Positions 6,078-22,931 of a stretch of 47,150 nucleotides of DNA are shown in pieces. Within the stretch, counting starts at the first letter, position 1; each line of letters starts with the position of its first letter. The notes beneath the pieces were generated by a model. It did no database searches. It was given only the letters and a program-made list of their open reading frames with translations, and was not told where the DNA came from. The DNA is from Bacteroidales bacterium (lineage in GTDB: Bacteria; Bacteroidota; Bacteroidia; Bacteroidales; F082): assembly GCA_017537965.1 (NCBI GenBank), contig JAFYJV010000014.1:1-47150 (forward strand). Reading direction: 5' to 3'. A program made the position numbers and the translations under genes.

Positions 6078-7079
6078 ATGAAAAAGGGTTTGATAATAGT
6101 GTTGTTATTGATGGTTTTTGCATGCGATCATCAGCCCAACAAGCCTCAGCCTACTGATCCCAAGCCGACAACAACGGTGAACGTGCCAGCGTTCAATGCC
6201 GACTCGGCCTACGCCTTTGTGAAGGCCCAGACCGACTTCGGACCGAGAGTGCCGGGCACTGAGGCGCATGCATTATGCGCCCAGTGGCTCATCGACAAGC
6301 TTGTGGAATACGCCGACACCGTCATGGTACAGGAGTTTCGCACACGACTCTATAACAACAAAGGCATCGATGGACAAAACATCATCGCCAGTTTCAACCC
6401 CAAAGCTGCCAAGCGTATCGTGCTCTGTGCCCATTGGGACTCACGGCCTTTTGCCGACCACGACCCAGACGAGGCCAACTGGAATCATCCTATCGACGGC
6501 GCCAATGACGGTGCCAGCGGCGTGGGCGTGCTTCTCGAGAATGCCCGTTGCTTTCATCATCAGCCCTTGAATGAGAAATTGGGGGTTGACATCGTTTTGT
6601 TCGACCTCGAAGACTATGGTCCGCGCCAAGACCAAACAGAACAATACTACGACGACCGTCGGAACCATTGGGCTCTTGGGGCACAACATTGGTCGGCACA
6701 GCCACATGTCCCTGGTTACCATGCCAACTACGGCATCTTACTTGACATGGTTGGCAACAAACAACCCAATTTCATGAAGGAATATTACTCACAAGGATAT
6801 GCCGCATGGCTTAGCAACAAAGTTTGGCGAATCGCACAGGATCTTGGTTACCGCGATGCTTTTGTCAACGAGTTTGGCGATGCCATTAGCGACGACCATC
6901 TTCCCATGAACGAGATCGCTGGCATCCCCACCATCGACATCATCGACTTGCGACCTGAAAGCAGCAACCAGTCCTTTCCTGAGACCTGGCACACCCTTCA
7001 GGACAACATCGAGCACATCGACAGGAAAAGCCTCGAAATGGTCGGAAACGTATTAAATTACACCGTTTACAATGAATAG
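6078..7079 (+). CDS. M28-family lipoprotein, glutaminyl-peptide cyclotransferase-like
   Basis: The protein has 333 residues with a lipobox ending at Cys16 (LMVFAC). M28-fold metal-site motifs are in order: AHWDSRP (His119, Asp121), GANDGASGVG (Asp144), DLEDYG (Glu178), LDMVG (Asp223) and the late TWHTLQDN (His305). The GANDGASGVGVLLE block and Trp-His-Thr context resemble bacterial type II glutaminyl cyclases, such as that of Porphyromonas gingivalis, more than aminopeptidases. The likely reaction is conversion of N-terminal Gln to pyroglutamate on exported proteins, at the periplasmic side of a membrane. An aminopeptidase activity cannot be excluded from sequence. Its initiation region is a heptamer repeat. 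Every predicted signal-peptidase-I substrate in this window exposes Gln, which suits this role. Confidence 0.87.
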   Translation: MKKGLIIVLLLMVFACDHQPNKPQPTDPKPTTTVNVPAFNADSAYAFVKAQTDFGPRVPGTEAHALCAQWLIDKLVEYADTVMVQEFRTRLYNNKGIDGQNIIASFNPKAAKRIVLCAHWDSRPFADHDPDEANWNHPIDGANDGASGVGVLLENARCFHHQPLNEKLGVDIVLFDLEDYGPRQDQTEQYYDDRRNHWALGAQHWSAQPHVPGYHANYGILLDMVGNKQPNFMKEYYSQGYAAWLSNKVWRIAQDLGYRDAFVNEFGDAISDDHLPMNEIAGIPTIDIIDLRPESSNQSFPETWHTLQDNIEHIDRKSLEMVGNVLNYTVYNE

Positions 7080-7681: not shown

Positions 7682-7718
7682 AAAAAACAGGCGCCATCTC
7701 CGATGGCGCCTGTTTTTT
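7682..7718. terminator. Bidirectional Rho-independent terminator between convergent units
   Basis: Perfect 17-base arms (7682-7698 and 7702-7718) enclose a three-base loop, with an A-run on one side and a T-run on the other. It ends both the plus-strand barrel gene and the 15-kb minus-strand SusCD/PNGase operon. The TAA of the last minus-strand gene lies in the T-run (7718-7720). Confidence 0.93.
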
Positions 7719-8467
7719 TATTGTCCATTGAGGAAAGCGTCGAGCTCCCGTTTGGAAGAGTCGTAGCTAAAAGCTGCGTTTACCAAGAAGTATTTGTTTT
7801 TATCCACGCAGTAGGGATAGGCAAACTTGGCGAATTCGAGGCGGTTGCTCTCAAAGGAAAACAGCTTGCAGATCTCCGTCACCTGGGAGGCTCTCAACGG
7901 ATTGTTCGTGGCGATCTGCTTGGCCAGTGTGAGACGGGTGTTGTCGAATGACTCGCCTGACAAGGCTGTACGAGCCTCCTCAAAATCTCTATCCGACATG
8001 CATGGGACATCCATGGGTGGCGCCACCGGCATAGGGGGTGCCACCGGCATCTCTTCCATCACCAAAGGCGTGGTCAACTCCGGACGGATGCTGTGTGTGG
8101 CCGCCACCCAGCCAAAAAAGTTACCTTGCTGACGGATGACAAATGACTGAGCCGTCTGGTCGAATGCGACATACTGGCCAAAACAATGGCTGTCGTCGTC
8201 ATCAAGAACTACTCGAACATAGCTGTCACCGGCAGGAATTTCAGTGACAGAGATCGATTTTACTGGCATTTCGTTTTGCAATACTTCATCGATATATACC
8301 CAAAACGGGATATTCAGGCTGGTGGAGACCGTCAGTCCCACTGGATCGTGATGTACTACGGCCCCTCCGTGGTTTTTAGGCCGAACAGTAGCGGTTTTCT
8401 TCGGCGATTGGGCACTCACCGGCAGAATAAAAATACAGAGTAGGAATGATAAAACAATGTGTTTCAT
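7718..8467 (-). CDS. Secreted DUF4476 protein, last gene of the PNGase operon
   Basis: This 249-residue product has a signal peptide (ILPVSA, Gln20 next). An N-terminal half of about 110 residues is strand-rich (TVSTSLNIPFWVYIDEVLQ) and is followed by a Pro/Met/Val linker (PVAPPMPVAPPMDVP, about 141-155). The C-terminal DUF4476 domain (about 158-247) has the typical FDNTRLTLAKQI and LFSFESNRLEFAKFAY stretches. DUF4476 has no known activity. Only eight bases separate it from the upstream PNGase gene, so it belongs to the same transcript. Whether it contributes to glycoprotein use is not shown. Confidence 0.88.
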   Translation of the reverse strand: MKHIVLSFLLCIFILPVSAQSPKKTATVRPKNHGGAVVHHDPVGLTVSTSLNIPFWVYIDEVLQNEMPVKSISVTEIPAGDSYVRVVLDDDDSHCFGQYVAFDQTAQSFVIRQQGNFFGWVAATHSIRPELTTPLVMEEMPVAPPMPVAPPMDVPCMSDRDFEEARTALSGESFDNTRLTLAKQIATNNPLRASQVTEICKLFSFESNRLEFAKFAYPYCVDKNKYFLVNAAFSYDSSKRELDAFLNGQ

Positions 8468-8475
8468 GACAATAA

Positions 8476-11073
8476 TTATTGAATGACGACTTTTTTGGTA
8501 ATGAGTTTTCCTCCTATCACGTTGACCAGGTAAAGACCTGAAGGCAGGTCGCTGACATCGATGGTGGCAGTCTTGTCCATCACGAAGCCGCGCACCTCAA
8601 TGCCTTGGGCGTTGAGGATATGAACGCTGAGTTTGCCCAGCTCATAGTCCGTGGCAATGGTCATCTGGCCTTTCACCGGATTGGGCATGACAGTCACCGT
8701 AAACGGGTCTTTCTCAATATCGGGATATTCCTTGATATCGACCAACGTGCTTTCGTTGTTGGATCGGCTCACGACCATGCCCGAGACGCGTAGGAGAGGG
8801 TTGTCGGGATTGGAGCATAAGATACATAGGTTTTGTCCATCAACACAACCAGGATAGTTGGGATGGCATTGGTCGATATAGTTCGGGTCGAACTGATAGA
8901 AGAGATGGGCGCCGCCTTGAGTCAAATACGCTGTCATGTCGTAGTCCCACACCAAGGCCATACTGCCCGGACACCATCCGCTCCGTTCGTAGGTCCACGT
9001 GCCGTTTTGTGGCTGACAGCCGGCTGGGTTTGGATTGCAGGTACGCCAAAGGTGCTGATCGAACCTATTTTGGCCATCCACAAAGACATGGTGTGTGGCT
9101 TCATAAAACTCCGCCGCGTTGCCAGTATTATAGGCGTTGTTTGAAGAGTTGCTCCAGTTATGACCGCTGGTGATGATCTTCAGGTGGGCTTCCTCTGTGT
9201 TTTCGGCAAACTCGAAATCCACCTCTGGAACCGGCTGCTGGTTGGCATAGTCGCCAAACTCGTAGGTGCCAAACCAAATAGGTTGCACATCAGAATATAG
9301 ATAATCTGGGGTGCCTTTCTGCATATTGAAAGTCAGAATGGGATTGAAACTCCAGTTATGCCATATCTCGTAATAAACCTCAAACTCCACCAATCCTTGC
9401 AGGACGGATGTATAATCAGTGACATCCAAATCGTCGTCGCATTCCACACCGAAAGGCGAGCAGTAACGGAACAGCTCTACCCATTCGCCTCGATGGTTCT
9501 TGACACGGACAAAACCGATATGGTCGTAAGGATCGCAGCTGTTGTTGACACATTGATGGTCGTAATGCGCATTGATGGTGGTAAAGGCTCCCACATGCGT
9601 AGGCAAGGCATATTCTCCGTAAGAGTATTGATGGGCCGACGTCACTACCAGATCGCCGTTCATGGCCACTGCATCCACGTTGTTGTAGGTGTTGGTCACG
9701 GTGAAATGGTTACTCATCGTGGTAGTCTTGCCTCCCGACTGGGTGATGGAAGCGGTCATGTTGAAGTCGCCAAAGGAAGTGGGTTCCCAAAGGCCAAACC
9801 AATAGCCGTTGTCGGGGTCGTCGGGATAGGCCGTCTTCAGTTGGATGGTCTGTCCATCGACGTTGCAGTGCACATCTTTGAACTTGATGACGTCGCCGTG
9901 TTCGATATGCGCGCTCAACACCAGCATCACCGGTTTCAGCTCGGGCATATAGACGTTCAAGTTGTCGTACGGCCGACGGATAGTGATCTCCGGCGTAAAA
10001 TGATCGGGGTTGACCACCTCGAAAGTGCGGTTCACCGACGGTGCGGCCTGCCACTGCACGCCATCGCCTGGCTGAGAAGCGCGGATCTTGACCATGCCTT
10101 CTTCGCCGGTCAGAAACACCTTGTTTTCTTCCAAGGTGGCAGGTCCTTCTATCAGCTCAAGCTGTACGGGAAGTCCCGAAGATGCAGAGACGTTGAGTGC
10201 AAAAGGTTCATCGAAGGTAAGCTTGTCGGGGATAGCTTCGAAATCGATGAACTGGGATGCCAGTCCTGCCGGCGTATGCCGTACAACGATGTTGTCGAAG
10301 CCGCCATGTGAGCTGCTCAAGAAGAACACGCCATCCCATACGGCCGGATCGAAACGGTCGCCACTGCCAGGGGTGAGACCGGCGTTGAGACCTTGTATCT
10401 CAGGGATGGGCTCAAACTCGCCGTTCAAGGCAAAGTCGGCGAATAACGAGACGGCACCTTCCCTGTTGTTGGCTTCCAAGTCGATCATCAGCTTCCAGCG
10501 CACCCAACCTGCTTCAGGCGTATCGTAGTCGATATCGACAGGCATGGTGTTGTCGGGCAGGACGATGCCGTTGACAAACTTGGGCAGTGTTCCCGTACCC
10601 GTGGTGATGAAATACACGCCACCGTCCTGCACGTTCAGGTTGGGATTGGGCTGGGTGGTCTCATAGCTCATTGGCGGCAACACCGTGCCGTCGCCATCGG
10701 CATCATACCCCACACCGAAACAAGTGCCCCACCAGTTGCGGAGCATGTCGATCTCTATCTCGATGGTGCCGCCTGTCGAAAAGTCGAATGGGAAGTCGGC
10801 GGTGGACTTGTGCGTGGCTACTTCGCCATAGTTGGTGTTGGCGTTGTTGAAAAAGACTCCTATAGTCTCGTCGGGACAGATCGCACCACCCGCACCAAGA
10901 TAAGCAGTCACAAAGGTGCCACCGCCTGCACTGTGTGCACGCGACACCCATCCATGTTGGCCGTTCAAGGGAGCGTTCTCCACACAATCGTTAAAGTCCA
11001 TGATGGCCGTCGTCTGGGCCATCAACCCACCCAAAAAGGTCAATAATAGCAATAACAAAGAAGTTCTTTTCAT
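8476..11073 (-). CDS. T9SS-secreted PNGase F-type peptide-N4-(N-acetylglucosaminyl)asparagine amidase, copy 1
   Basis: The predicted reaction is hydrolysis of the bond between Asn and the N-glycan, leaving Asp on the protein. The 865 residues comprise: a signal peptide (cleaved before Gln20); a jelly-roll or lectin-like domain (about 22-270); an Ig-like domain (about 275-353, SGLPVQLELIEGPA); a second Ig-like domain (about 360-460, PEITIRRPY); PNGase F N-domain (about 485-610); PNGase F C-domain (about 615-770); and a T9SS type A sorting domain (about 790-865, PNPVKGQ to ITKKVVIQ). By eye alignment to Elizabethkingia PNGase F, catalytic Asp60, Glu118 and Glu206 correspond to Asp517 (CDPYD), Glu569 (YYEIW) and Glu655 (NAAEF), and RAGWCPG corresponds to RSGWCPG. 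It sits 19 bases after the GH3-like gene in the operon. Activity is inferred. Confidence 0.92.
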   Translation of the reverse strand: MKRTSLLLLLLTFLGGLMAQTTAIMDFNDCVENAPLNGQHGWVSRAHSAGGGTFVTAYLGAGGAICPDETIGVFFNNANTNYGEVATHKSTADFPFDFSTGGTIEIEIDMLRNWWGTCFGVGYDADGDGTVLPPMSYETTQPNPNLNVQDGGVYFITTGTGTLPKFVNGIVLPDNTMPVDIDYDTPEAGWVRWKLMIDLEANNREGAVSLFADFALNGEFEPIPEIQGLNAGLTPGSGDRFDPAVWDGVFFLSSSHGGFDNIVVRHTPAGLASQFIDFEAIPDKLTFDEPFALNVSASSGLPVQLELIEGPATLEENKVFLTGEEGMVKIRASQPGDGVQWQAAPSVNRTFEVVNPDHFTPEITIRRPYDNLNVYMPELKPVMLVLSAHIEHGDVIKFKDVHCNVDGQTIQLKTAYPDDPDNGYWFGLWEPTSFGDFNMTASITQSGGKTTTMSNHFTVTNTYNNVDAVAMNGDLVVTSAHQYSYGEYALPTHVGAFTTINAHYDHQCVNNSCDPYDHIGFVRVKNHRGEWVELFRYCSPFGVECDDDLDVTDYTSVLQGLVEFEVYYEIWHNWSFNPILTFNMQKGTPDYLYSDVQPIWFGTYEFGDYANQQPVPEVDFEFAENTEEAHLKIITSGHNWSNSSNNAYNTGNAAEFYEATHHVFVDGQNRFDQHLWRTCNPNPAGCQPQNGTWTYERSGWCPGSMALVWDYDMTAYLTQGGAHLFYQFDPNYIDQCHPNYPGCVDGQNLCILCSNPDNPLLRVSGMVVSRSNNESTLVDIKEYPDIEKDPFTVTVMPNPVKGQMTIATDYELGKLSVHILNAQGIEVRGFVMDKTATIDVSDLPSGLYLVNVIGGKLITKKVVIQ

Positions 11074-11092
11074 GATTATAGTTTTATAATTG

Positions 11093-12466
11093 TCATTTCA
11101 GATGAAACCGTGCTTTCAAAGGCGTGTTGTTCATGGCATTGCCCACATAGGCGACATAGAAGCCCGGTTCGGCAATCCAGCTCTCCGACACCTCGTCGTA
11201 AAACAGCACCGATGACTCGTTGATAGGGAAGCTGACTTCCTGACTTTCACCAGGTTTGAGGGTGACTTTTCGGAAGCCTTGTAGGGTCTTGTCGGGTTTG
11301 GGCAGCGAGGTCTTGATGTCGTGGATATAAAGCTGCACCACCTCCGAACCCTCGCGATCGCCAGTGTTGGTCACAGTGACGGTGACAAAGAGGTCGCCTC
11401 CGATGGGAAGTTCCCTTCCTGACTGGACCATGTTGGTTAACTCAAACGAGGTATAGCTCAGCCCGTATCCCAAGGCAAACAGCGGTTCTTTTTCTTCTAT
11501 TCCTTTCCATTCGTATGGCAGTTTGCCCGAAGGGTTGACTTCACCGGTAAGGACGGCTGCCAAGGCTTCGGCTCCTTCTTCACCCATTTCTCCGGCTTGA
11601 ATCAAGGCAGAAACTTTTTTTAGGAAGGGGATCTCGTCACGGTCAGAGAAATCGTCGGTAAGAATCACGACATCGGCCAAACCTGCTTTTATCACCACTT
11701 GATCGAAAGTACAGGCAGCCCAGTCGGCCTGGATATGGCGTCGCGACAAAGCCTCTTCCAAGCCTTCCACGGGATGGGCACCGACCATCCAAATCTTACA
11801 AGAGGCGCCTGCCGACAATGGGAGAAGGCCATGGTCGTTCTTCAAAAGCACAATCCCTTCTTCGGCAATTGTCCTGGCAACAGCCTTTTGTTCATCAGTA
11901 CCCAGAAAACCCATTGGACGCTGACGGTTCATGGATGTCAGGCAATACAGCTGCAGCAGGGGGCTCAGACGGTCATCTACCGATTCGGAAGCAGGTTGAT
12001 CCAAGGCCTCAAACCATTCATCTTGCGCCACTGCCATGCCACAGGAATGCACGCCTTCGATAAAAGGCGAAACCATCTTCAACGCCAGATAAGGATCACT
12101 GCCCGTTTCAGCGATGTCGATGTTGCCAATCATGTGTACATTGCGGTAAAGAGCCCTTTCGGCGAGCGCATGACCATATTGCCATGCCAGCTCGGGATCC
12201 CATGCGGAAGCAAGAAAGGAACAGGAAGGAAACAGCGGATCACGCTGGGTATCGACGTTGAAGGAAGGGATTCCCAGTCGTGGCACACCTGGCTTGACGG
12301 TGGATGACATCCCTTGAAGCAGGACGCTTTTTTCTTCAGGTGTCATGCGGTTCAACGCATCTTCCACTCTGTCATCCAAAGGTTTGGTGTCGTCCAGATA
12401 GACAGGGAGCTGGGCCATGGCTCCCAGTGACATCAACAAAAGGGTGATTGTTATTATTCTTTTCAT
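11093..12466 (-). CDS. Shrunken secreted GH3-like protein, probably not a functional glycosidase
   Basis: The 457-residue product (GH3 enzymes usually have about 700-800) keeps a signal peptide (AMA, Gln19 next), the early GH3 stretch RVEDALNRMTPEEK and FPSCSFLASAWDPELAWQYG. It also keeps the second-domain start EEGIVLLKNDHGLLPL, GEVNPSGKLPYEW and a fibronectin-III-like C-terminal domain (about 360-457). The barrel domain is compressed. The segment that carries the nucleophile Asp (usually GFVMSDW-like) is absent, KHF is replaced by AQDEW, and the GPxG motif is missing. The frame is intact with no stop. It is either a non-catalytic binding or regulatory relative or a decaying gene still read in frame. 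It lies between two PNGase genes in the operon. Confidence 0.82.
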   Translation of the reverse strand: MKRIITITLLLMSLGAMAQLPVYLDDTKPLDDRVEDALNRMTPEEKSVLLQGMSSTVKPGVPRLGIPSFNVDTQRDPLFPSCSFLASAWDPELAWQYGHALAERALYRNVHMIGNIDIAETGSDPYLALKMVSPFIEGVHSCGMAVAQDEWFEALDQPASESVDDRLSPLLQLYCLTSMNRQRPMGFLGTDEQKAVARTIAEEGIVLLKNDHGLLPLSAGASCKIWMVGAHPVEGLEEALSRRHIQADWAACTFDQVVIKAGLADVVILTDDFSDRDEIPFLKKVSALIQAGEMGEEGAEALAAVLTGEVNPSGKLPYEWKGIEEKEPLFALGYGLSYTSFELTNMVQSGRELPIGGDLFVTVTVTNTGDREGSEVVQLYIHDIKTSLPKPDKTLQGFRKVTLKPGESQEVSFPINESSVLFYDEVSESWIAEPGFYVAYVGNAMNNTPLKARFHLK

Positions 12467-12477
12467 CTTATTTCAAT

Positions 12478-12522
12478 TCCCAGGATGTTGCCCTGGACTG
12501 GGTTAGACACCCTTTGCAGGGC
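12478..12522. repeat. Imperfect palindromic element between the GH3-like and PNGase 2 genes
   Basis: CCCAGG at 12478-12483 and CCTGG at 12492-12496 can pair. Outside that, GCCCTG at 12490-12495 can pair with CAGGGC at 12517-12522, giving two alternative stems. At 62 bases this gap is the longest in the operon. It may be a remnant of a dispersed palindromic repeat or a processing site; no T-run supports termination. Confidence 0.5.
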
Positions 12523-12528
12523 GATCTA

Positions 12529-15072
12529 TTAGTCTTTAATGAATTTCTTTGTGATCACGCTGCCACCGAGCATCTTCACGAAATAGATTCCCGAAGGCAA
12601 TGTGCCGACATCGATGGTGCGTTCACCTGTGAAGGTGAAATACATCATCTCTTGGCCTTGCATGTTCAATATCAATACGCTGACGGCGCCTTTGTCGTAA
12701 TCGGTTTTCAGCGTCAGTTGATCGTGGACGGGGTTGGGAACCATTATCACGTCGAAGGATGGGGCGACTTCGGGATGATGGATGCCAAGAATTCCGTTCG
12801 CATCATTGCTGAAGGAGACGACTTTGCCCGACACCTTGAGGATCGGGTTGTCGGGTGCCGCACACTCCGTGCAGGTGACGCCGTTGACACAGTCGGGATA
12901 GTTGGGGTGGCAGTAATCGAGATAAGTCGGATCGAATTGATAGTTGAGTTCAGCACGGCCTGCTGGGAGAAACTCGCTCAAGTCGAAGTCCCATACCATG
13001 CCTATCGAGCCAGGACACCATCCGCTGCGAGAATAGGTCCAAGTGCCATTCTGAGGCTGGCAGCCTGCCGGATTGGGACTGCAAGAGCGCCACAGGTGCT
13101 GGTCGTAACGGTTTTGGCCGTTGACGAAGACATGGTGGGTGGCTTCATAGAATTCCGCAGCATTGCCGGTATTGTAGGTGTTGTCGGTGCCACTACTCCA
13201 GTTATGTCCGGTAGTAGTGAGCTTCAGCACCGCTTTCTGGGTATGCTCGGAGAAAGAGTAATCGACGGCTGGTACGGGCTGTTGGTTGGCATAGTCGCCA
13301 AATGGGAAAGTGGCGAACCAGATCTCATCCACATCGGCGTAGAGGTATTCGGGGTCGCCTTTGGTGAAAGTGAAGATCAGATTTGGGTTGGAACCGTCGC
13401 CATTCCAGAGTTCCATATAGTATTCCATCTCCACCAGTCCTTGCAACAAGGAGGTATAGTCGCTCACATCGAGATCGTCGTCGCATTCCACGCCGAAAGA
13501 AGTGATGTAGCGGAACAGCTCCACCCACTCGCCACGGTAGTTGCGGATGCGGACACCGCCCACCCGGTCGTAGGTGTCGCAGTGGTTGTTGACACAGTTA
13601 TAGTCGAAGTGCGCCATGATCTGGTCGAAGGCACCCACATGCGAAGGAAACACATAATCGCCTTTGGCGCTATGTTGGCTGGGTGTACACACCAGGTCGC
13701 CGTGCATGGTGATTACCTCCAAAGTGTTGTCGATCTGTTGTTCCAGTGTAAATTGGTTGTGTTGTTCCGACACCTTGCCACCCGACTGGACGACTCGGAC
13801 GGTCATGTCATAGTCACCGAAGGCATCAGGGGTCCATAAACCATAATAATAGCCGTTGTCGGGATCATCGGGATGGGCTGTTTTCAGTTCAATTTCCTGA
13901 CCGCCGATCGAGGCTTTGAAGTCGATGAAATGGATCACCTCGGGATGTTCGATATAGGCTGAGACCACCACCATCACAGGATACAAGTCGCTCAGATAGA
14001 CCTTGGTGTTTTCGTATGGTCGGCGGATGGTGATCTCAGGTTCGTAGAGGTCGGGATCGACCACCTCGAACTGTTTGATTACATCGGGAGCGGGAAGCCA
14101 TGTCTCGTTACCAGGCTGGAAGGCCTTGAAACGTACGACACCCGTCTCGCTTGTGAGGGTCAACACGTTGCCGTTGATGCTGGCGGGACCTTCTATCATT
14201 TCGAACGAGACGGGCAGACCCGACGAGGCATGAGCCGAAAGGGTGATCGGGGCATTGAACACCAACTGGTTGGGGATGTCTTCCATTTCTATGAGTTGGG
14301 CACTTCCAGGTGGTTGCTGCCTAACCAACAGGTTATCGAAACCGCCCGTGCCGCCTTGTGCATGGAAGAAGAGGCCATCCCAGACTCGATAGTCGTTCTT
14401 GTCGCCAGAGCCGGGAGTGAGATGCATGTTGATGTTGGTGGCCGCTGCCTGTTGGATCCATTCGCCGGTGCATCCCGGTTGAACAAAGACGGTCACGGAG
14501 CCTTCCCCGTTGAAGGCAGCAAAATCGAACGACATCTTGTATCGATTCCAGCCGTCTTCGTCGAATGCAAATTCCAAAGAGGAGCCATTGGGTAGGCAAA
14601 GCTTGGCGTGGCCGCTATCGCCCTGTCCCTTGCAAAACAGATAGACGCCGCCGTCGGCATCGTTCATGCCTGGCAGGATGTGACCATCACCGTCGGCATC
14701 GAAGCCTACGCCAAAGAAGTTGCCCCACCATGTTCGGTTCATGTCCATCTCAAGATCCATGATGCCGCCTTCCTGAAAGCTGAAGTTGAAGTTGGCCGAA
14801 GCCTTACGGGTGGCGGTACGACCCACGCCTGAACCGCCGTATGGGTACCAAACAGCCATCGATTCGTCGGGGGCCATGCTGGATCCACAAACATAGCCCA
14901 CATCGAAGTCTTGCGAGGCGGGGGCTGTTTGGTAGTGTGTCACCCAACCATCCTGGCCGTTGAGGTTTTGGCTGCCCTCAGTCAAGGAGTTGAAATCATA
15001 GCGATATTCCACTTGGGCAGCAATCCGTCCACTTATCGTCAACATCAATAACAATATGATTGTCTTTTTCAT
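12529..15072 (-). CDS. T9SS-secreted PNGase F-type amidase, copy 2
   Basis: It has the same architecture as the other two copies: jelly-roll-like domain, two Ig-like domains, PNGase F N- and C-domains, and a T9SS type A sorting domain (about 770-850, VPNPVHDQ). I chose the ATG at 15072 because it gives the standard leader MKKTIILLLMLTISGRIAA before Gln; an in-frame ATG at 15081 adds three residues. Numbered from 15081, the residues aligning with PNGase F Asp60, Glu118 and Glu206 are Asp505 (CDTYD), Glu557 (YYMELW) and Glu643 (NAAEF), all present. The conserved block NPAGCQPQNGTWTYSRSGW is intact. It starts 37 bases after copy 3 (28 bases if 15081 is the start). Predicted substrate is N-glycosylated protein or peptide outside the cell. 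Confidence 0.92.
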   Translation of the reverse strand: MKKTIILLLMLTISGRIAAQVEYRYDFNSLTEGSQNLNGQDGWVTHYQTAPASQDFDVGYVCGSSMAPDESMAVWYPYGGSGVGRTATRKASANFNFSFQEGGIMDLEMDMNRTWWGNFFGVGFDADGDGHILPGMNDADGGVYLFCKGQGDSGHAKLCLPNGSSLEFAFDEDGWNRYKMSFDFAAFNGEGSVTVFVQPGCTGEWIQQAAATNINMHLTPGSGDKNDYRVWDGLFFHAQGGTGGFDNLLVRQQPPGSAQLIEMEDIPNQLVFNAPITLSAHASSGLPVSFEMIEGPASINGNVLTLTSETGVVRFKAFQPGNETWLPAPDVIKQFEVVDPDLYEPEITIRRPYENTKVYLSDLYPVMVVVSAYIEHPEVIHFIDFKASIGGQEIELKTAHPDDPDNGYYYGLWTPDAFGDYDMTVRVVQSGGKVSEQHNQFTLEQQIDNTLEVITMHGDLVCTPSQHSAKGDYVFPSHVGAFDQIMAHFDYNCVNNHCDTYDRVGGVRIRNYRGEWVELFRYITSFGVECDDDLDVSDYTSLLQGLVEMEYYMELWNGDGSNPNLIFTFTKGDPEYLYADVDEIWFATFPFGDYANQQPVPAVDYSFSEHTQKAVLKLTTTGHNWSSGTDNTYNTGNAAEFYEATHHVFVNGQNRYDQHLWRSCSPNPAGCQPQNGTWTYSRSGWCPGSIGMVWDFDLSEFLPAGRAELNYQFDPTYLDYCHPNYPDCVNGVTCTECAAPDNPILKVSGKVVSFSNDANGILGIHHPEVAPSFDVIMVPNPVHDQLTLKTDYDKGAVSVLILNMQGQEMMYFTFTGERTIDVGTLPSGIYFVKMLGGSVITKKFIKD

Positions 15073-15109
15073 AACTATCATTTCAAATCCTTAAACTACT
15101 CTTAACTGC

Positions 15110-17764
15110 TTACTGTTTCACGATCTTCCTTGTCACCATCTGGCCGCCGATGATCTTGACAAAATAAATGCCTGCTGGCAAGTCGCTCATGTCAATGGTA
15201 GCCGAGTCTTTCATGCTAAAACCGCGCACCTGGACACCTTGGGAATTGATGATGTGAACGCTGGCATTGCCTTTGTCGTAGTCGGTTTTGATAGTCAAGA
15301 GGTCGTTCACCGGGTTGGGGGTGAGAATCACTTGGAAGGGATCTTTATAGATGTCGGGCAACGCAGGAACTTCTGTAAGGATGTCGGTGTTATGGCTATA
15401 GGTCACTACCTTACCGGAAATTATTAGGATCGGGTTGCTTGAATCCTGACAATTGGGACAGCTGTTTTGTCCAGTAACACAATCGGGATAGTTGGGGTGG
15501 CATTCATCGATATAGGTGGGATCGAACTCATAGAGCAAATCTACATTGCCGTCGGTGAGATAATTGTCCAAAGAATAATTCCACAACATTGCCATGCTAC
15601 CTGGGCACCAGCCGGCACGAGCGTAGGTCCAAGTGCCGTTTTGAGGCTGGCATCCAGTGGGGTTGGGAGAACAGGCTTCCCATAGATGCTGTGTGTGAAC
15701 CGTAGCGCCATTGAATTTGATGTTGTGCGTGGCTTCGTAGAATTCAGCGGCATTGCCTGTGTTATAGTTGCCGTTGTCACCGCTACTCCAATGGTGTCCT
15801 GTGGTGGTAAGTTGCAGTTTGGCCTTTTCTACACAAGGATCAAATACAGCCTTGTGGAGCGGAACAGGACATTGGTTTGCATAATCGCCAAAATCATAGA
15901 TTCCAGACCACACTTCCTGCAAATCCACATAAGGATATTCTGGTGTTCCTTTGGTATATTCAAAAAGGGCAATTGGACTGTAGCCTTCTCCCGCAGATTC
16001 ATACATTTCGCAAGAATACTTGAATTCAACAAGTCCTTGCAACACCGACGTGAAGTCAGTTACATCAAGGTCATCAACACATTCGACACCAAACGGGGTG
16101 AGATAACGGCAAAGTTCCACCCATTCGCCACGATAGTTCTTCACATAAACTTGACTCACATGGTCGTACGACTTGCAATTGCCGTTCAAACAGTTGTGCT
16201 CATAATGCAAATTGATGGCATTGAACGCATTAACGTGGGTGGGGAAAGGAAAATCGCCATAGCTGTCAAAATGACCATTAGTCGCCACCATTTCGCCATT
16301 TAGGGCAGTGACCGTCATATCATTATAGTTGGTGGTCACCTCAAAAGTATTGGAGGCCGAGGTTGCCTTGCCGCCCGTCTGGACGATGCGCACGGTCATG
16401 TTGTAGGTGCCTGGGCCCGAGGGAGTCCAAGTGGTGTACCAATAGCCGTTTTCAGGATTGTCAGGATAATCGGTCTTTAGGGTCAGTACCTGTCCGTCAA
16501 TCGTGGCTTTCACTTCTTCAAACTTGAGGATGTTTCCGTGGTCGATATAGGCACTCAGCACAATCATCACGGGATTCTCGAAGTTGGGCATATAGACCTT
16601 GGTGCCTTCGTAAGGACGGCGGATGGTGATTTCTGGAGCGTAATTCTCAGGATCCACTACATAGAAAGTCCGGGTCACCGCAGGAGCCGGTTGCCATTGA
16701 GTGCCGTCGCCAGGCTGGGTGGCACGCACTTTCACGGTGCCTTCCTGACCAGTGAAGGAGAGGATGTTGCCATCGATAGTAGCAGGACCTTGAACGACTT
16801 CATAGTTAACGGGAAGACCTGAAGTGGAAACGGCCTGGAGAGTGATAGGGGCGTTGTACACCAGCTGGTCTGGGATCTCGGCAAAGTCGATGAACTGTGC
16901 CGCCAGGCCGCCGGGGAAATGGCGTACGGTGAAGTTGTCGAATCCACCCCAGCCGCTGTTGAGCATGAAGATGTGATGCCATGTGGCAGGATCGTATTTG
17001 TCACCGCTACCGGGGGTGAGCCCAGCGTTGACGCCTTGACATTCCGGCACGGCTTCCCAGTCGCCGTTGGGCGTATATTCTTTCATATAGAGCGTCACCG
17101 CTCCAGCGCCACCGTTGGCATCCAGGTCAATGGAGATTTTCCATCCGTACCAATGCTTTTGAATAGCGGGGTTGATTTCGCAAGCAAAGGTGTTGTTGGG
17201 CAATACCACACCACTTTTGAAATAGGGGTCGGTCGCTCGGTTTTGTGTGGTCAACATCCAGACGCCACCGTCGGGCAGAGTGCTGTTGGGATCAGGGAGG
17301 ACTGGTTCGCAAATAGCATGATTGGGAGCCGCCATAAAAGGAGGAAGTACGGAACCGTCGCCATTGCCATCATAGCCGATGCCAAAGAGGTCGCCCCAAC
17401 ATTCGCGCCACATGTCGCATTCCACCTCAATGATACCTCCTGTGGAAAAGTCAAAGCCATATTGGGTGATGTCGTGTGTGGCAATGTCGCCAAAACTCGT
17501 TCCCGAAGCGATTGAAAACACTGCCATGGTCTCATCTGCCGCTGGTGTTTCCGGCGTGTCATTCCAAAAGTGACCAAGATAACCTGTGTACATGGGATGG
17601 CCGGCATTGCCCGCATGATGGACGCGAACATACCAACCATCTTGTCCGTTCAGGTCGGCTTCTTCGGTATAGGTAGGTTCATTGAAGTTGAAGGTGACCT
17701 CTGTCTGGGCCATCAGACCGATGCCCAGAGCCATCATCATAAGGAATAAAAATGTCTGTTTCAT
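15110..17764 (-). CDS. T9SS-secreted PNGase F-type amidase, copy 3
   Basis: This is the longest copy (884 residues) and the first after SusD. The signal peptide ends LMA before Gln20. The jelly-roll-like region (about 22-285) is followed by Ig-like domains (about 295-370 and 375-478), PNGase F domains (about 505-785) and the T9SS sorting domain (about 810-884, LTPNPVND). Catalytic-site equivalents are Asp534 (CKSYD), Glu586 (SCEMY) and Glu674 (NAAEF). Two differences from the other copies stand out near the active site: CK replaces CD before the Asp, and the Trp after the Glu118 equivalent (Trp120 in PNGase F) is Tyr. Loops are longer and contain extra Cys residues. Substrate preference may therefore differ. 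It is 32 bases downstream of SusD. Confidence 0.92.
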   Translation of the reverse strand: MKQTFLFLMMMALGIGLMAQTEVTFNFNEPTYTEEADLNGQDGWYVRVHHAGNAGHPMYTGYLGHFWNDTPETPAADETMAVFSIASGTSFGDIATHDITQYGFDFSTGGIIEVECDMWRECWGDLFGIGYDGNGDGSVLPPFMAAPNHAICEPVLPDPNSTLPDGGVWMLTTQNRATDPYFKSGVVLPNNTFACEINPAIQKHWYGWKISIDLDANGGAGAVTLYMKEYTPNGDWEAVPECQGVNAGLTPGSGDKYDPATWHHIFMLNSGWGGFDNFTVRHFPGGLAAQFIDFAEIPDQLVYNAPITLQAVSTSGLPVNYEVVQGPATIDGNILSFTGQEGTVKVRATQPGDGTQWQPAPAVTRTFYVVDPENYAPEITIRRPYEGTKVYMPNFENPVMIVLSAYIDHGNILKFEEVKATIDGQVLTLKTDYPDNPENGYWYTTWTPSGPGTYNMTVRIVQTGGKATSASNTFEVTTNYNDMTVTALNGEMVATNGHFDSYGDFPFPTHVNAFNAINLHYEHNCLNGNCKSYDHVSQVYVKNYRGEWVELCRYLTPFGVECVDDLDVTDFTSVLQGLVEFKYSCEMYESAGEGYSPIALFEYTKGTPEYPYVDLQEVWSGIYDFGDYANQCPVPLHKAVFDPCVEKAKLQLTTTGHHWSSGDNGNYNTGNAAEFYEATHNIKFNGATVHTQHLWEACSPNPTGCQPQNGTWTYARAGWCPGSMAMLWNYSLDNYLTDGNVDLLYEFDPTYIDECHPNYPDCVTGQNSCPNCQDSSNPILIISGKVVTYSHNTDILTEVPALPDIYKDPFQVILTPNPVNDLLTIKTDYDKGNASVHIINSQGVQVRGFSMKDSATIDMSDLPAGIYFVKIIGGQMVTRKIVKQ

Positions 17765-17796
17765 ATTGATTGACTTTTAACTATTGTAAATTCAAT

Positions 17797-19485
17797 TTAT
17801 CTGAAATCCATCCACCAAACCTTGGTTTGTCTCGTGTCGCCATGCAACATCCTGGTCAATTGTTCGGTGTAGTTTTCGTAATTGTATTCTATTTCTTTTT
17901 GAGGATATTCCATTCGATAGGAAGTCAACTTGGCATGGTTGGTAGTGGTAGGCGTCGCCATGGTGCGACGGGCCAGAGCCCAAGCTTCCCAAGGTTGACG
18001 GAAGAGGTTCAACCAACGCTGTTGATAGATCATTTTCAAGTAAAACTCTTGACTGCCATCATATTCGGGATTCATCCAAACAGCGTAATTCATCACATTG
18101 GCTGCCATGTTGTTGCTCCAAGCCCAAATATCGAGGTTGTTGACATAATTGGTGTAATCGGGATAACGATAGGTCCAACGGGACGTCTGGTTGGGGATAT
18201 GGGTCCAGAAGAGGAATGACTGGTAAACGCCTGACCGGATGGATTCGTCCGCGTTGAGAGGCGGTGTAATGCCACCGATATTGCGAACTTCAATTTCAGC
18301 CTTCATGAAGAGTACATCGGCATAGGTCACCAAAATTTGGGGTACGTATTTCTCGTCTCTTGTCAAATAGTAGTTGAAGGGTGAGAAAAGGCATGAGGGG
18401 CCTTTGAAGGTATAGCTGGCGTCGCGCGACTGGGCATAGGGGGAGCCACCTTCCGTTGGGGTGTCAATGGTGCGGATCTGTGGATAGGGTCTCCAGGCAC
18501 CGTCAGGGAAACTATCAGTCTTATGGTTAGTGTCGAAGAACAAATACGTGCGGTAGTCATAAATCCTCCAATTGTCCCTATTGTCGGGCTTGGCAAGGCA
18601 ACTCCAGATGGTCTCGCCCATGCGGAGGTGCTTGTGTTCACGGAATGACCAATTGGTATCCCAGTTAGTACCCAATACACTGGGCCACAGGCAGATGCCT
18701 CCACCTGTTGTGCTACCACCCGAAACATTCATCTGGGTATAGATAAAATGATAGGCGTTCACCAACAAAGGCGTGGAATAATTGGGATCCTTGTCATACA
18801 TACGAAGACCATGTCTGAGGATCAACGAATTGGCAAACTCTGCCCACAGCGTGTAGTTGTTGTTGAGCAGCACGTCGTATGACAGTTTATAAAAATCATT
18901 GCCCAAAGGGGTGGCTATCGTGTCCTTTTGCAATACGTCACGTGACCAGACCAACTCTTCCAGCAAGGATTTATAGATGCTTTCTTGGGTATCCCATTCA
19001 GGTTTCATGGTCTCTTGTGAAGCTGCATTTTCCCAAATACGACCCGCCTGGGAATAGGGAATGTCGCCGAAGATATCCGTCACCTTAAAGGTCTGGTATG
19101 CTTTCAGCACGTTCAGTTGGGCGCGTACCTTGTCGCAAATCGCAGTGTCGGCCTGTTCTTCATCATAGGCATCGAAACGTTTTTCCAGTTCACGGATGTT
19201 GGCCAGCATGTAATAGTAATCCGACCAAACTGCCGAAATGCCGATTTGTGAATTGCCCCAAGACTCAGATGTCAAAGCACCGAGTTCTGTTTCAGGATAC
19301 CAGATCTCGTTTTGCAGGTAAAACTGCTCGTTCATGCTTTGTTGCAACGATCCCACCACACCGTTAAAAAGTGCTTCGATGGTTGTTCCCGTAGGTGAGA
19401 ACGGATCTCGATTCATGTCTTCAAAGTCTTTGGTACAAGAGACCATTATTAGACTCATTATAATACTGTATAATACCTTTTTCAT
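17797..19485 (-). CDS. SusD/RagB-like surface lipoprotein (SusD-like family 2)
   Basis: The 562-residue protein has a lipobox ending at Cys17 (IMVSC) followed by TKDFEDMNRDPFSPTG, a typical SusD start. TPR-type helical segments include VRAQLNVLKAYQTFKVTDIFGDIPYS, broken here only for description. Bulky aromatic loops and a late YADVLFMKAEIEVRN stretch are also typical of the SusD-like 2 group. SusD proteins cap the SusC channel and bind the imported ligand, usually a glycan, sometimes a peptide as in RagB. The pairing with three PNGases suggests released N-glycans or glycopeptides as ligand (inference). The gene follows SusC by 38 bases, nearly all of which are a heptamer repeat. Confidence 0.93.
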   Translation of the reverse strand: MKKVLYSIIMSLIMVSCTKDFEDMNRDPFSPTGTTIEALFNGVVGSLQQSMNEQFYLQNEIWYPETELGALTSESWGNSQIGISAVWSDYYYMLANIRELEKRFDAYDEEQADTAICDKVRAQLNVLKAYQTFKVTDIFGDIPYSQAGRIWENAASQETMKPEWDTQESIYKSLLEELVWSRDVLQKDTIATPLGNDFYKLSYDVLLNNNYTLWAEFANSLILRHGLRMYDKDPNYSTPLLVNAYHFIYTQMNVSGGSTTGGGICLWPSVLGTNWDTNWSFREHKHLRMGETIWSCLAKPDNRDNWRIYDYRTYLFFDTNHKTDSFPDGAWRPYPQIRTIDTPTEGGSPYAQSRDASYTFKGPSCLFSPFNYYLTRDEKYVPQILVTYADVLFMKAEIEVRNIGGITPPLNADESIRSGVYQSFLFWTHIPNQTSRWTYRYPDYTNYVNNLDIWAWSNNMAANVMNYAVWMNPEYDGSQEFYLKMIYQQRWLNLFRQPWEAWALARRTMATPTTTNHAKLTSYRMEYPQKEIEYNYENYTEQLTRMLHGDTRQTKVWWMDFR

Positions 19486-19487
19486 AA

Positions 19488-19522
19488 TTCTTCTTACTCC
19501 TTACTTCTGTCTTCTGACTTCT
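19488..19522 (-). repeat. Tandem heptamer array, 5 x AGAAGNN, filling the SusC-SusD gap
   Basis: Read on the minus strand the units are AGAAGTC, AGAAGAC, AGAAGTA, AGGAGTA, AGAAGAA. The array starts one base after the SusC stop codon and ends two bases before the SusD ATG. The fourth unit creates AAGGAG, a Shine-Dalgarno-like sequence, about ten bases before the ATG. Confidence 0.9.
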
Positions 19523-19523
19523 A

Positions 19524-22500
19524 TTACAAATTCACCTTTAATGATAGCATGACAGACCTCGTCCCTGGATATGATCCGTATTCCAATCCCTGGGCATTGC
19601 CAGAGCCTTGTGTCCCTTCAGGGTTGATGTTGTCGGGCAAAGTCTTGTAGAAATAAAACAGGTCACGACCCACCAATGAGATGGAAGCCTGTTTGAAGAA
19701 GTTTTGCTTGTCGAGCCATTTGCGTGGGAAGTCGTATGTCAACGACAGTTCGCGCATCTTGATCCAAGTGTTGTCCACAATGCCTGGAGTGGTGAGGATG
19801 TTGCCCCATCCGCCAAAGTTGGGCATGTATTTATAGAGGTAATGTACCACATGATCGTTTTCCACGGCTTCGCCCGTCTCGGTATTGATGCAATAGCCAG
19901 GAAGAATGACACCGTAGTTGCCAATGTAATTGCCATCGGCATCGTAATAGCGCAGACCGTTGCCTTCACGCTCGTAAAGTGTTTCCGGACTTTGACCAGT
20001 CTGCATACCCACCACGTATGAAGCACAGTAGATCTGGCCTCCCAACTTGGCATCGACCAAAGCGTACAGCGACCAGTTTTTGTAGGAAGCCCTTAAATTG
20101 ATACCACCTGTTAACAAGGGGGCGCAGTTGCCTACAGGTACACGGTTGTCTGTCTTCAAATAAGTGGTACCCGACTCATTGAGGAGTGGTAGGGCGTTGC
20201 CATCGGCATCGTAGAAAGGACCAACGGTAGTGCCATCGGGCATGGTGTATTCATAAACGTAGTCCCAACCATAGATGGTGCCGTATTCCTCGCCTTCCTC
20301 CACTGCGACGGCGGGACCGTTGGAACCCCAAATCTCAGAGAGCAAATACATGTTGGCTCCAGCAAGATCGACAATTTTGTTTTTGTTGCGAGCCAAATTC
20401 AAGCCCACTTGAACGCCGTAATCCTTGGCTTGTGCGATATCGTAAGTCATGATGGCCTCAATGCCTTTGTTGGTCACCACACCTGTGTTAATAGTCACAT
20501 TGCTTGCGCCCGATGAAGGAGCGAGCGGTGAGGAAAGGATTTGATCCCATGAGTAGATGTCGTAATAAGTGAAATCCATGTTGAATCTTGCACCGAGACC
20601 CAAGTCGAAGCCAAATTCAAAGGCGCGTTGCTTTTGGGGTTTCAGTTCCAAAGGCGGCACTGTGGAAGGCAATGACGAAGAGAGTTGATGGCCAAACGAG
20701 CCCGTGTTATAGGTATAAGTGAGTTGATAGGGCTCTGTGTCGCTCGCAGTCTGTGCCCAAGATCCTCTCAGCTTTAAGAAGTTGACAGGACCCCAATTCC
20801 AGTTTTTAAAAGCGGACGTCGGCACAAAACTCAAGGTCGCCGAAGGATAGAAGTAGCTGTTGCGCGTGACCGGCAGCGTTGACGACCAGTCGTTACGGCC
20901 AGTCACGTCAAGGAATAGCCAGTTGTTATAGCTCATGTTCAAGAAGGCATATAACGAGTTGACTTGTTTTTCCCATTTCGACTCTCCGAAGACTCGTTCC
21001 GTGGCTGAAGAGTAGTTGTAAATGGTATAAAGATTGGCATAAGCCCAATTTCCAGAGCTGCCATTGAGACCGTCGCGATAACCGTAATACTGTTCGCCAC
21101 CAACAGAGAAACGTATGTTGAGCGGAGTGTCAAAGAGTTTGTCCTTATAGGCAGTGAGCAGAAAGTCCATGTCACGGGTAATGGAGGTGTTTTTCTCTTT
21201 TTTATAATAGCCGCCTGCCATTTCGTCGATGGTGGTGGGTTTGTGTCGTGTAATATAGTTGTCGTTGGTCCAGTCAAGGGCTACCTTGGCGTTGGCGCTC
21301 AACCAAGGCGTGATGTCGTACATCAAACGGACAGATCCAAACATCTTGTCGCGATCGAGTGTCGTGTTGTTATTGTAGAAAGTCCAGAAAGTGCTGCTGT
21401 AGATATATTGATAGGGATAGCCATCAAACTGGTTCATTGTTCCATCAGGATTTTCGTAAGAAGTGACTTCCAAGCCTTTCCAGCTGCGAGGCCAACTGTA
21501 GAGCAACCCTTTGTTGAAGTTGCTGTTCGATTCACCGATTTCAGGGGAGTTCAAACGGTAATAATCCAGATAGGTGAAGGCCACATCAACTTTGATCTTG
21601 TCGGAAACGTTGATGAGGGAACCTACGTTGACGGTGGACTGGCGAAGGTTGCAGTTGTCGATGATGGCATCAGTACGCGAGTCGGTGAACGACACACGGA
21701 TGCTTCCAAAGTCGCCGGCATTTTGCAGCGAGATGTTGTTGTTCATCGTGTGGCCATTGTGGTACAACAGGCTGAGGTTGTCGGGTTGGGGATCGTATTT
21801 GCGCACCACACCGTCCCACCAAAGTACGCTCTCGCCATTCATCTCTGGACCCCAGCTTTGGGCACCGCCATAGTAGCCAAAAGTGGTGTTGGTAGGTTCG
21901 CCTGCCGGGCCGTCATCGACGCTATAAATACCTGGATATTCATATACCTGGTTGCCGTCCTCGTCGAACATTCCCTCTATGGGGGTCAATGTAGGCGTGT
22001 TGAAGGTGATGGGACCTCCTGCGCCATATTTGTTCTGCACCGAGCGAAAGAGGTATGGTTGCGTAATCTTATATGAAGTATTGTAGCTGATACCCAATCC
22101 ACGTTGTTTACTGCCTTTCTTGGTAGTGATGAGTACCACGCCGTTGCCGCCTCGTGAGCCGTAAAGGGCGGCCGCAGTGGGGCCTTTCAAGATATCAATG
22201 TTCTCGATGTCTTCCTGGTTGATATTGTTCAGGGCTGTACCCCAATCACGTCCACCACTCCAAGCGGTGACGCCACCTTCGTTGGTCATAGGGACACCGT
22301 CCACCACGATGAGCGGCTGGTTGTCGCCCAAGATGTTGTTGTTACCACGGATGACGATACGCGAAGCACCACCGTCAACGCCGTTAGGGTTGATGATCTG
22401 AACACCTGCGGAACGTCCGCTCAAGGCACTGATCACGCTACCGGAACCTGACTTGGCAATCATATCGCCTCCGATTTCTTCGGTGGCATAACCCAATTCC

Positions 22501-22853
22501 CTTTTCTGACGTTTGATACCCAAAGCTGTTACCACGACATCGTCAAGCAGTTGTGCATCCTGATCCAAAGTGACATTAATCTTGGAACGACCATTTACGG
22601 CATGTTCCTGAGTGGTGAAACCAACGTAGCTGAAAACCAAAACAGCCTTGGCGTCCACTTCAATGCTGTAATGGCCGTCAATGTCGGTGATGGTTCCAAC
22701 ACTGCCGCCTTTTTCCTTGACTGTTACGCCTGGAAGTCCGAAACCATCATCGCTTGAAACGACGGTACCTGTTACCGTCAAATGCTGGGCAAAGGTCGTA
22801 ACAGAGGAAAACAAAATGAACAACCAAAGAAATAGTAAATATTTTTTATACAT
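19524..22853 (-). CDS. SusC/RagA-like TonB-dependent outer-membrane transporter
   Basis: The 1109-residue protein imports a ligand through the outer membrane with TonB energy. A signal peptide (TFA, Gln23 next) leads into a carboxypeptidase-regulatory-like domain (about 25-103, GTVVSSDDGFGLPGVTV). The SusC linker DDVVVTALG (104-112) follows. The plug domain contains the classic RGNNNILGDNQPLIVVDGVP and LKGPTAAALYGSRGGNGVV. The rest is a 22-strand barrel ending in VMLSLKVNL. It is the first gene of the SusCD/PNGase operon and has its own promoter at 22902-22931. No sensor, sigma or anti-sigma gene lies nearby in this window. Confidence 0.95.
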   Translation of the reverse strand: MYKKYLLFLWLFILFSSVTTFAQHLTVTGTVVSSDDGFGLPGVTVKEKGGSVGTITDIDGHYSIEVDAKAVLVFSYVGFTTQEHAVNGRSKINVTLDQDAQLLDDVVVTALGIKRQKRELGYATEEIGGDMIAKSGSGSVISALSGRSAGVQIINPNGVDGGASRIVIRGNNNILGDNQPLIVVDGVPMTNEGGVTAWSGGRDWGTALNNINQEDIENIDILKGPTAAALYGSRGGNGVVLITTKKGSKQRGLGISYNTSYKITQPYLFRSVQNKYGAGGPITFNTPTLTPIEGMFDEDGNQVYEYPGIYSVDDGPAGEPTNTTFGYYGGAQSWGPEMNGESVLWWDGVVRKYDPQPDNLSLLYHNGHTMNNNISLQNAGDFGSIRVSFTDSRTDAIIDNCNLRQSTVNVGSLINVSDKIKVDVAFTYLDYYRLNSPEIGESNSNFNKGLLYSWPRSWKGLEVTSYENPDGTMNQFDGYPYQYIYSSTFWTFYNNNTTLDRDKMFGSVRLMYDITPWLSANAKVALDWTNDNYITRHKPTTIDEMAGGYYKKEKNTSITRDMDFLLTAYKDKLFDTPLNIRFSVGGEQYYGYRDGLNGSSGNWAYANLYTIYNYSSATERVFGESKWEKQVNSLYAFLNMSYNNWLFLDVTGRNDWSSTLPVTRNSYFYPSATLSFVPTSAFKNWNWGPVNFLKLRGSWAQTASDTEPYQLTYTYNTGSFGHQLSSSLPSTVPPLELKPQKQRAFEFGFDLGLGARFNMDFTYYDIYSWDQILSSPLAPSSGASNVTINTGVVTNKGIEAIMTYDIAQAKDYGVQVGLNLARNKNKIVDLAGANMYLLSEIWGSNGPAVAVEEGEEYGTIYGWDYVYEYTMPDGTTVGPFYDADGNALPLLNESGTTYLKTDNRVPVGNCAPLLTGGINLRASYKNWSLYALVDAKLGGQIYCASYVVGMQTGQSPETLYEREGNGLRYYDADGNYIGNYGVILPGYCINTETGEAVENDHVVHYLYKYMPNFGGWGNILTTPGIVDNTWIKMRELSLTYDFPRKWLDKQNFFKQASISLVGRDLFYFYKTLPDNINPEGTQGSGNAQGLEYGSYPGTRSVMLSLKVNL

Positions 22854-22901: not shown

Positions 22902-22931
22902 CAAAAATATAAAAAAATAGTTAAAATCAAA
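22902..22931 (-). promoter_or_regulatory. Promoter of the SusCD/PNGase operon
   Basis: On the minus strand TTTG (22928-22931) and TATTTTTG (22902-22909) are 18 bases apart, matching the Bacteroidota consensus. The start site would fall near 22896, giving a leader of about 43 bases to the SusC ATG. Confidence 0.72.

Follow-up and report, generated by a model that had tools for sequence, protein, structure and literature searches.

Release of N-glycans before uptake is known in the Bacteroidota mainly through endoglycosidases. In the Gpd complex of Capnocytophaga canimorsus, an outer-membrane transporter and its lid protein (SusCD) act together with a surface enzyme that frees N-glycans (PMC3128124). 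As far as the accessible text of that report goes, the operon (GpdC-D-G-E-F, with SiaC) is built around an endo-beta-N-acetylglucosaminidase, situated on a surface lipoprotein, that works outside the cell and leaves one N-acetylglucosamine (GlcNAc) on the protein, while the sialidase is encoded elsewhere. Here we analyze a putative seven-gene operon in which SusCD is instead accompanied by three proteins of the PNGase F type, amidases that would take the whole glycan. It occupies positions 7718-22853, on the minus strand, of a 47,150-nucleotide stretch of DNA from a Bacteroidales bacterium (contig JAFYJV010000014.1), hereafter called the window.

Besides SusCD with another N-glycan-releasing enzyme (Gpd), both SusCD beside a PNGase and PNGases with a sorting tail for the type IX secretion system (T9SS) are already in print. 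Among the Bacteroides PNGases and plant N-glycan loci of Crouch 2022 (PMC9522356), PNGase genes lie beside susC/D pairs, with nothing else in Bacteroides sartorii and within larger loci in B. vulgatus and B. helcogenes. The available portions of that study describe single PNGases with predicted periplasmic signals, often with GH92, GH29, GH3 or GH130 neighbours; the window differs in its predicted T9SS export, its three copies and a dead GH3. PNGaseDo of Draconibacterium and PNGaseL of Flavobacterium akiainvivens resemble the window proteins in carrying T9SS tails and extra beta modules (PMC12381499), yet a SusCD context is not described in the accessible part of that paper, whereas the window PNGases are SusCD-linked. 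Compared with Gpd, the operon has no GpdE/F-like genes and none for an endo-beta-N-acetylglucosaminidase or surface lipoprotein of the Gpd kind, and any likeness is at most in the way of working.

In the openly licensed literature, our searches turned up no description of a SusCD operon with multiple PNGases, which is weak evidence of absence. The initial annotation of this DNA had cited single PNGases as known and a characterised SusCD operon with three as not; within that literature the latter holds, but SusCD with a single PNGase had already been published (B. sartorii, PMC9522356). As far as the same literature shows, what is apparently new is the repeated occurrence of triplets, the strict genus-wide tie between SusC and PNGase, and the devotion of one SusCD per genome to it.

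A SusCD operon with three PNGase F-type proteins

By their Pfam and NCBIfam families, the seven genes encode SusC, SusD, two PNGases, a cut-down GH3, a third PNGase and a DUF4476 protein, separated in that order by 38, 32, 28, 62, 19 and 8 bases. Gene calls and families thus agree with the initial annotation on the number, strand and order of the genes and on gaps of 8 to 62 bases. SusC (19524..22853, minus strand), a TonB-dependent outer-membrane transporter, matches TIGR04056 at 568.6 bits (cut-off 368.25) and is the only protein of its own genome over that cut-off, the runner-up among all 23 candidates scored reaching 72.6 bits. The SusD-like lid protein (17797..19485, minus strand; PF12771, 1.2e-32) has an N-terminus with a lipobox-like LIMVSC.

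A promoter-like pair, TTTG-18-TATTTTTG, is found at 22902..22931 on the minus strand, 56 bases 5' of the SusC start, and is presumably of the Bacteroidota -33/-7 type. The -7-type box TAnnTTTG occurs at most 90 bases 5' of SusC in 19 of 23 loci, against a mean of 2.1 and a maximum of 8 in shuffled sequences. At the other end, between convergent genes, is a terminator-like hairpin (7682..7718, minus strand) of 17 pairs with the loop GGA, whose folding energy of -27.5 kcal/mol (z -7.2) was equalled by none of 200 shuffles. A generic scan did not list this hairpin and gave no excess of sigma-70-type sites. The promoter and terminator that had been read at the operon's ends are therefore borne out by the box in 19 of 23 loci and by the hairpin, and we infer that the seven genes would be transcribed as one unit.

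No sulfatase, regulator or intact glycosidase is found among the seven genes by Pfam and NCBIfam, and they lack the linked glycosidases and sensor-regulator of a classical polysaccharide utilization locus (PUL). The claim that no functional glycosidase, sulfatase or regulator is present is thus correct for the operon but not for the genome, in which three GH92, two GH20 and one BNR_2 sialidase-like protein are encoded, all away from the operon. We rejected the description of the window as a typical N-glycan PUL, the GH92 and GH20 genes being on other contigs. Near those genes we saw no SusC or SusD family calls; the surrounding genes were listed only, not annotated.

The three PNGases lie on the minus strand at 15110..17764 (copy 1), 12529..15081 (copy 2) and 8476..11073 (copy 3), and match PF09113 at 1.1e-10, 3.2e-14 and 2e-14, respectively. 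They are the only PF09113 matches in their own genome (2.32 Mb, 41 contigs, 94% complete). Aligned with PNGase F, they retain the equivalents of Asp60, Glu118 and Glu206 as D534, E586 and E674 in copy 1, D505, E557 and E643 in copy 2, and D517, E569 and E655 in copy 3; the equivalent of Arg248 is likewise kept in each, and the active-site motif reads YDH, YDR and YDH. A C-terminal T9SS type A tail (TIGR04183/PF18962) is over cut-off in all three. Both the acidic triad and the sorting domains had been predicted and are upheld here. Two pairs compared among the three proteins were 51-54% identical (53 and 54% in the alignment).

The initial annotation also suggested a search with the PNGase F domain models. 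Its outcome is divided, as PF09113 passes in all three copies but PF09112, the model of the N half, gives only weak matches (copy 1 at E 0.16; E <= 1 in 18 of 36 family members, the best at 0.00038). Longer comparisons reach across both halves: copy 1 aligns with PNGase F residues 27-280 (phmmer E 5.8e-28), and a 36-row family profile covers PNGase F 7-279 at 7.3e-45 and matches zebrafish Ngly2 at 8.9e-7. Homology over both jelly-roll halves, together with the catalytic residues, supports the assignment of the three as putative amidases of the PNGase F type. They are like PNGase F (type I) and Ngly2 in being two-jelly-roll proteins with equivalents of Asp60, Glu118, Glu206 and Arg248. Unlike these, they are longer by some 480 residues at the N-terminus, end in a T9SS tail, have Tyr at position 59 and, in two copies, His at position 61, and are three to an operon. 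The N-terminal extension matches no assigned family; 2 of 36 relatives carry a Laminin_G_3 domain.

In an alignment of 102 family PNGases, each of at least 780 aa, the equivalents of Asp60, Glu206 and Arg248 are invariant, as they are in 19 of 19 further proteins from a class-wide survey. Position 118 varies: Glu in 75, Gln in 14, Asp in 4, Gly in 4, Val in 3 and Pro in 2. In PNGase F, Glu118 blocks core alpha-1,3-fucose, and Gly opens the pocket in type II enzymes, according to the available text of PMC9522356; the rule can be overridden by open active sites, as PMC12381499 states in its accessible part. All three window copies have Glu, as type I enzymes have Glu or Asp, so core alpha-1,3-fucose is predicted to be poorly accepted. 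The variation at this position makes the family a ready set of PNGases for testing the type I/type II rule.

We also considered whether the pair His61 and Glu118 is tied to SusCD linkage. His61 occurs in 21 of 46 SusCD-linked rows and in 2 of 45 unlinked ones (11 of the 102 rows, with less than 4 kb of upstream DNA, being left out). However, only about 1/6 independent tree pairs support the association, and we rejected it; because it is confounded with clade, no such association is claimed.

The shortened GH3 and DUF4476 proteins

Between the second and third PNGase genes, at 11093..12466 (minus strand), is a 457-aa protein with the C-terminal part of GH3 and an Fn3-like domain, and with no GH3 N-domain match in Pfam. 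Compared with the intact GH3 8va7, it has no parts matching residues 184-316 and 391-520 (gaps of 133 and 130 residues). These stretches hold the nucleophile and the acid/base of GH3 enzymes. As read from its sequence, the protein cannot work as a GH3 catalyst, just as the initial annotation had it.

The simple story of a decaying pseudogene was rejected. The shortened GH3 occupies the same place of the operon in one other species (L047), where it is 453 aa long and 57% identical with two 2-residue gaps, and dN/dS (the ratio of nonsynonymous to synonymous substitution rates) between the two is 0.22, with dS near saturation. Because it is shared in the same place at this dN/dS, we regard it as a kept protein, perhaps a glycan binder. 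It was found in only 1 of 60 genomes of the genus at E <= 1e-40, which speaks against its importance. The last gene of the operon (7718..8467, minus strand) encodes a DUF4476 protein (PF14771, 1.8e-23) with a signal peptide-like N-terminus; in relatives, too, a DUF4476 gene is often found 3' of a PNGase gene.

SusCD and PNGase are linked across genomes

A scan of contigs yielded 77 loci, most of them from Bacteroidales of the rumen and the horse gut, among them Candidatus Limimorpha and F082. SusD is present in 26 of them, and all 26 have a PNGase of the window kind. We then turned to 60 genomes of the genus, counting SusD orthologs at E <= 1e-80 and SusC among the best 11 candidates per genome at E <= 1e-90, so that a weaker second SusC could be missed. 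SusD (one per genome) and SusC over cut-off (one each) occur in an identical set of 41 genomes. PF09113 matches are found in 57 of the 60, and we split them by length and score into type A, the window kind (about 850-930 aa, modest scores; 97 matches, some of them truncated at contig ends, from 43 genomes), and type B (about 570-650 aa, high scores; 44 matches). Every one of the 41 SusC-bearing genomes carries type A, which is absent from 17 of the 19 without SusC (Fisher 4.4e-13, kinship ignored); the two that do carry it, G014 and G083, come from fragmentary or incomplete assemblies (460 contigs; 77% complete). Because the same 41 of 60 genomes share SusC, SusD and type A, and 17 of the 19 others are without type A, the SusCD-PNGase pairing in this genus is not accidental.

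The pairing is also one of position. SusC adjoins SusD in 40 of the 41 genomes, and the gene directly after SusD is a type A PNGase in 33, while in two such a gene lies 5-6 kb further on; in the remaining six none was seen on that contig, in some cases by reason of a contig end. Type B PNGases occur in many genomes of the genus, including most of those without SusC, and were not found in the window's own genome.

Across the class, a PNGase F-like domain is found in 156 of 395 genomes at E <= 1e-20. We fetched 19 places, picked from the best matches. At five (L116, L117, L119, L122 and L125, from three other families), a related SusC (44-48% identity) and a SusD immediately precede a single PNGase of about 830 aa; at one, a 411-aa PNGase follows an unrelated SusCD; and SusCD is absent at 13 of the 19, two of these with little upstream DNA. 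The linkage asserted in the initial annotation, and the survey of Bacteroidales genomes it called for, thus gave a positive result, with SusCD beside PNGases recurring in the genus and in three other families. From the class-wide and genus surveys together, we therefore regard SusCD-PNGase as an old, scattered module and the triplet as a local enlargement of it.

In the five other-family PNGases, position 118 is Ala, Ala, Ala, Thr and Glu, in the order listed above. Because of the Ala or Thr in L116, L117, L119 and L122, several of these SusCD-linked enzymes may accept core alpha-1,3-fucose. Variants of the arrangement were also seen: one locus (L071:346-12553) reads SusC-SusD-SusC-SusD-PNGase, with the SusCD pair doubled before one PNGase, and another (L043:8579-9913) has an AAA_14/DUF4143 ATPase gene between SusD and PNGase, an apparent insertion into the operon.

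Origin of the triplet

The three tandem PNGases are real in the window but are not the norm. The usual array in the genus has one or two PNGases after SusD, and at least three type A genes are found there in 4 of 41 genomes (G000, G004, G023 and G061), contig ends lowering the count. In a tree of the 102 PNGase proteins (support by the approximate likelihood-ratio test SH-aLRT only, short search), the three window copies fall into three separate clades, each common to other species. For this reason we consider them old paralogs.

Another Bacteroidales lineage has a separate SusCD array with three PNGases (L089:3-12520, with L086 and L091). Its SusCD is 46/35% identical to that of the window, and its PNGases and their relatives stand outside the window group in the tree (6 versus 96 rows, support 100), where branches are long. 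This points to a separate triplication, as far as the tree can tell. Position 118 is not Glu in the aligned copies of that lineage, whereas it is Glu in the window triplet.

Proposed function and alternatives

On the basis of gene order, protein families, catalytic residues, T9SS tails and co-occurrence across genomes, from which we extrapolate to activity, location at the surface, cargo, transcription as one unit and the course of the pathway, we favor on balance, by a modest degree, an operon for the deglycosylation of N-glycoproteins and uptake of the product, the amidase counterpart of the Capnocytophaga Gpd complex. Hypothetically, the three PNGases are exported through the type IX secretion system, as their tails suggest, and cut whole N-glycans off asparagine on glycoproteins outside the cell. 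SusC and SusD, the only SusCD importer found in the genome, would then bring the released glycan into the periplasm, to be trimmed there by GH92 and GH20 enzymes whose genes lie elsewhere. As old, separately kept paralogs, the three copies probably differ in substrate or pH range. A set of GH92, GH20 and sialidase-like proteins is as expected of an N-glycan eater, and the whole suggests that this bacterium of the grazing-animal gut is a specialist feeding on glycoproteins. A transporter operon served by amidases would leave the protein without GlcNAc and deliver the whole core, so that other downstream enzymes would be needed. With a single SusCD per genome, a few purified proteins could serve to test what the transporter carries, and thereby much of what these uncultured bacteria of the rumen and the horse gut feed on.

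Several observations weigh against this proposal. The genes for GH92, GH20 and sialidase-like proteins lie apart from the operon and are present in 59, 59 and 55 of 60 genomes of the genus, with or without SusC; being genus-wide irrespective of SusC, they are not tied to the operon. No GH130 was detected in the window's own genome. The co-occurrence of SusC and PNGase may partly follow kinship. Among solved structures, the window SusC is closest to BT2264 (251 bits; the runner-up has 166), with RagA third (130 bits). BT2263-2264 was reportedly solved with bound peptides, and RagAB is said, in the title of a cited reference, to be an oligopeptide importer. Finally, Arg61 of PNGase F is replaced by His in copies 1 and 3 (it is Arg in copy 2), and Trp59 by Tyr in all three.

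The structural relatives of SusC, along with the lack of any glycosidase or GH130 accompanying the operon, would fit an alternative in which the same amidases would expose the protein to proteases and SusCD would take up the resulting peptides or short glycopeptides. An M28 peptidase gene (6078-7079) also adjoins the operon, and one recurs close to many of the related loci (cluster c1, in 32 of 77). However, this gene is on the opposite strand and also stands beside loci without SusCD, and there is no peptidase inside the annotated SusCD-PNGase arrays. In one locus (L030:429-13353), moreover, a sialic acid-type gene set is followed after 79 bases by a PNGase gene of the copy-3 clade, along with a DUF4476 gene. 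The set comprises an N-acylglucosamine 2-epimerase (704.7 bits against a cut-off of 600), a lyase-like protein that falls short of its cut-off and two sodium/solute symporter genes, one of them mutarotase-fused. This context favors glycan use. Of the two cargoes that the initial annotation had proposed as alternatives, we lean slightly toward glycan as the one that SusCD imports, and regard peptide as an unlikely one that still deserves attention.

The departures at positions 59 and 61, together with the 27 of 102 family proteins in which position 118 is not Glu, raise the question of whether some of the three copies are glycan-binding or otherwise altered relatives of PNGase F rather than working amidases. 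We think this improbable, as each of the three retains the catalytic Asp, the two Glu and Arg248. Trp59 with Arg61 is not needed in the family, and Ngly2, which is 24% identical to PNGase F, departs here too: the accessible text of PMC12753239 reports it active with just the Asp60 and Glu206 equivalents, inactive without them, and active despite a His near positions 59/61. An aromatic-Asp-positive/aromatic motif is described as typical for active PNGases in the available part of PMC12381499. A similarly small chance attaches to a role other than feeding, in which deglycosylation would alter surface proteins of the host, plants or protists and SusCD would serve another substrate. PNGases without SusCD are indeed common, some PNGase being present in 57 of 60 genomes of the genus and SusC in only 41, but SusC never occurs there without a type A PNGase (41 of 41), and the arrangement with a related SusCD recurs in other families.

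Beyond uptake of freed N-glycans by this one operon, we tentatively offer a broader hypothesis, whose parts taken jointly are rather doubtful. In this genus of Bacteroidales from the herbivore gut, SusCD, which elsewhere occurs in many copies and serves many purposes, would have been cut to one copy per genome and given over wholly to N-glycoproteins, with no SusC left without PNGases, and two lineages would have built triplets separately with opposite choices at position 118, where fucose is sensed. Triplication would then have served more than once to broaden or divide up the range of N-glycans fed to a single importer.

Neighbouring genes

As a partner in the operon, the M28 peptidase is not supported; because of its strand and its presence beside loci without SusCD, we treat it as a conserved neighbour and not as part of the unit. 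Also next to the operon is a gene for an 858-aa leucine-rich repeat protein (3466-6042, plus strand; PF12799, 5.2e-38), found near related loci as well (cluster c9). On the other side of the operon, at 28200-30476 (plus strand), is a protein of the Porphyromonas-type peptidylarginine deiminase family (PF04371, 1.7e-26), also agmatine deiminase-like, which carries a T9SS tail.

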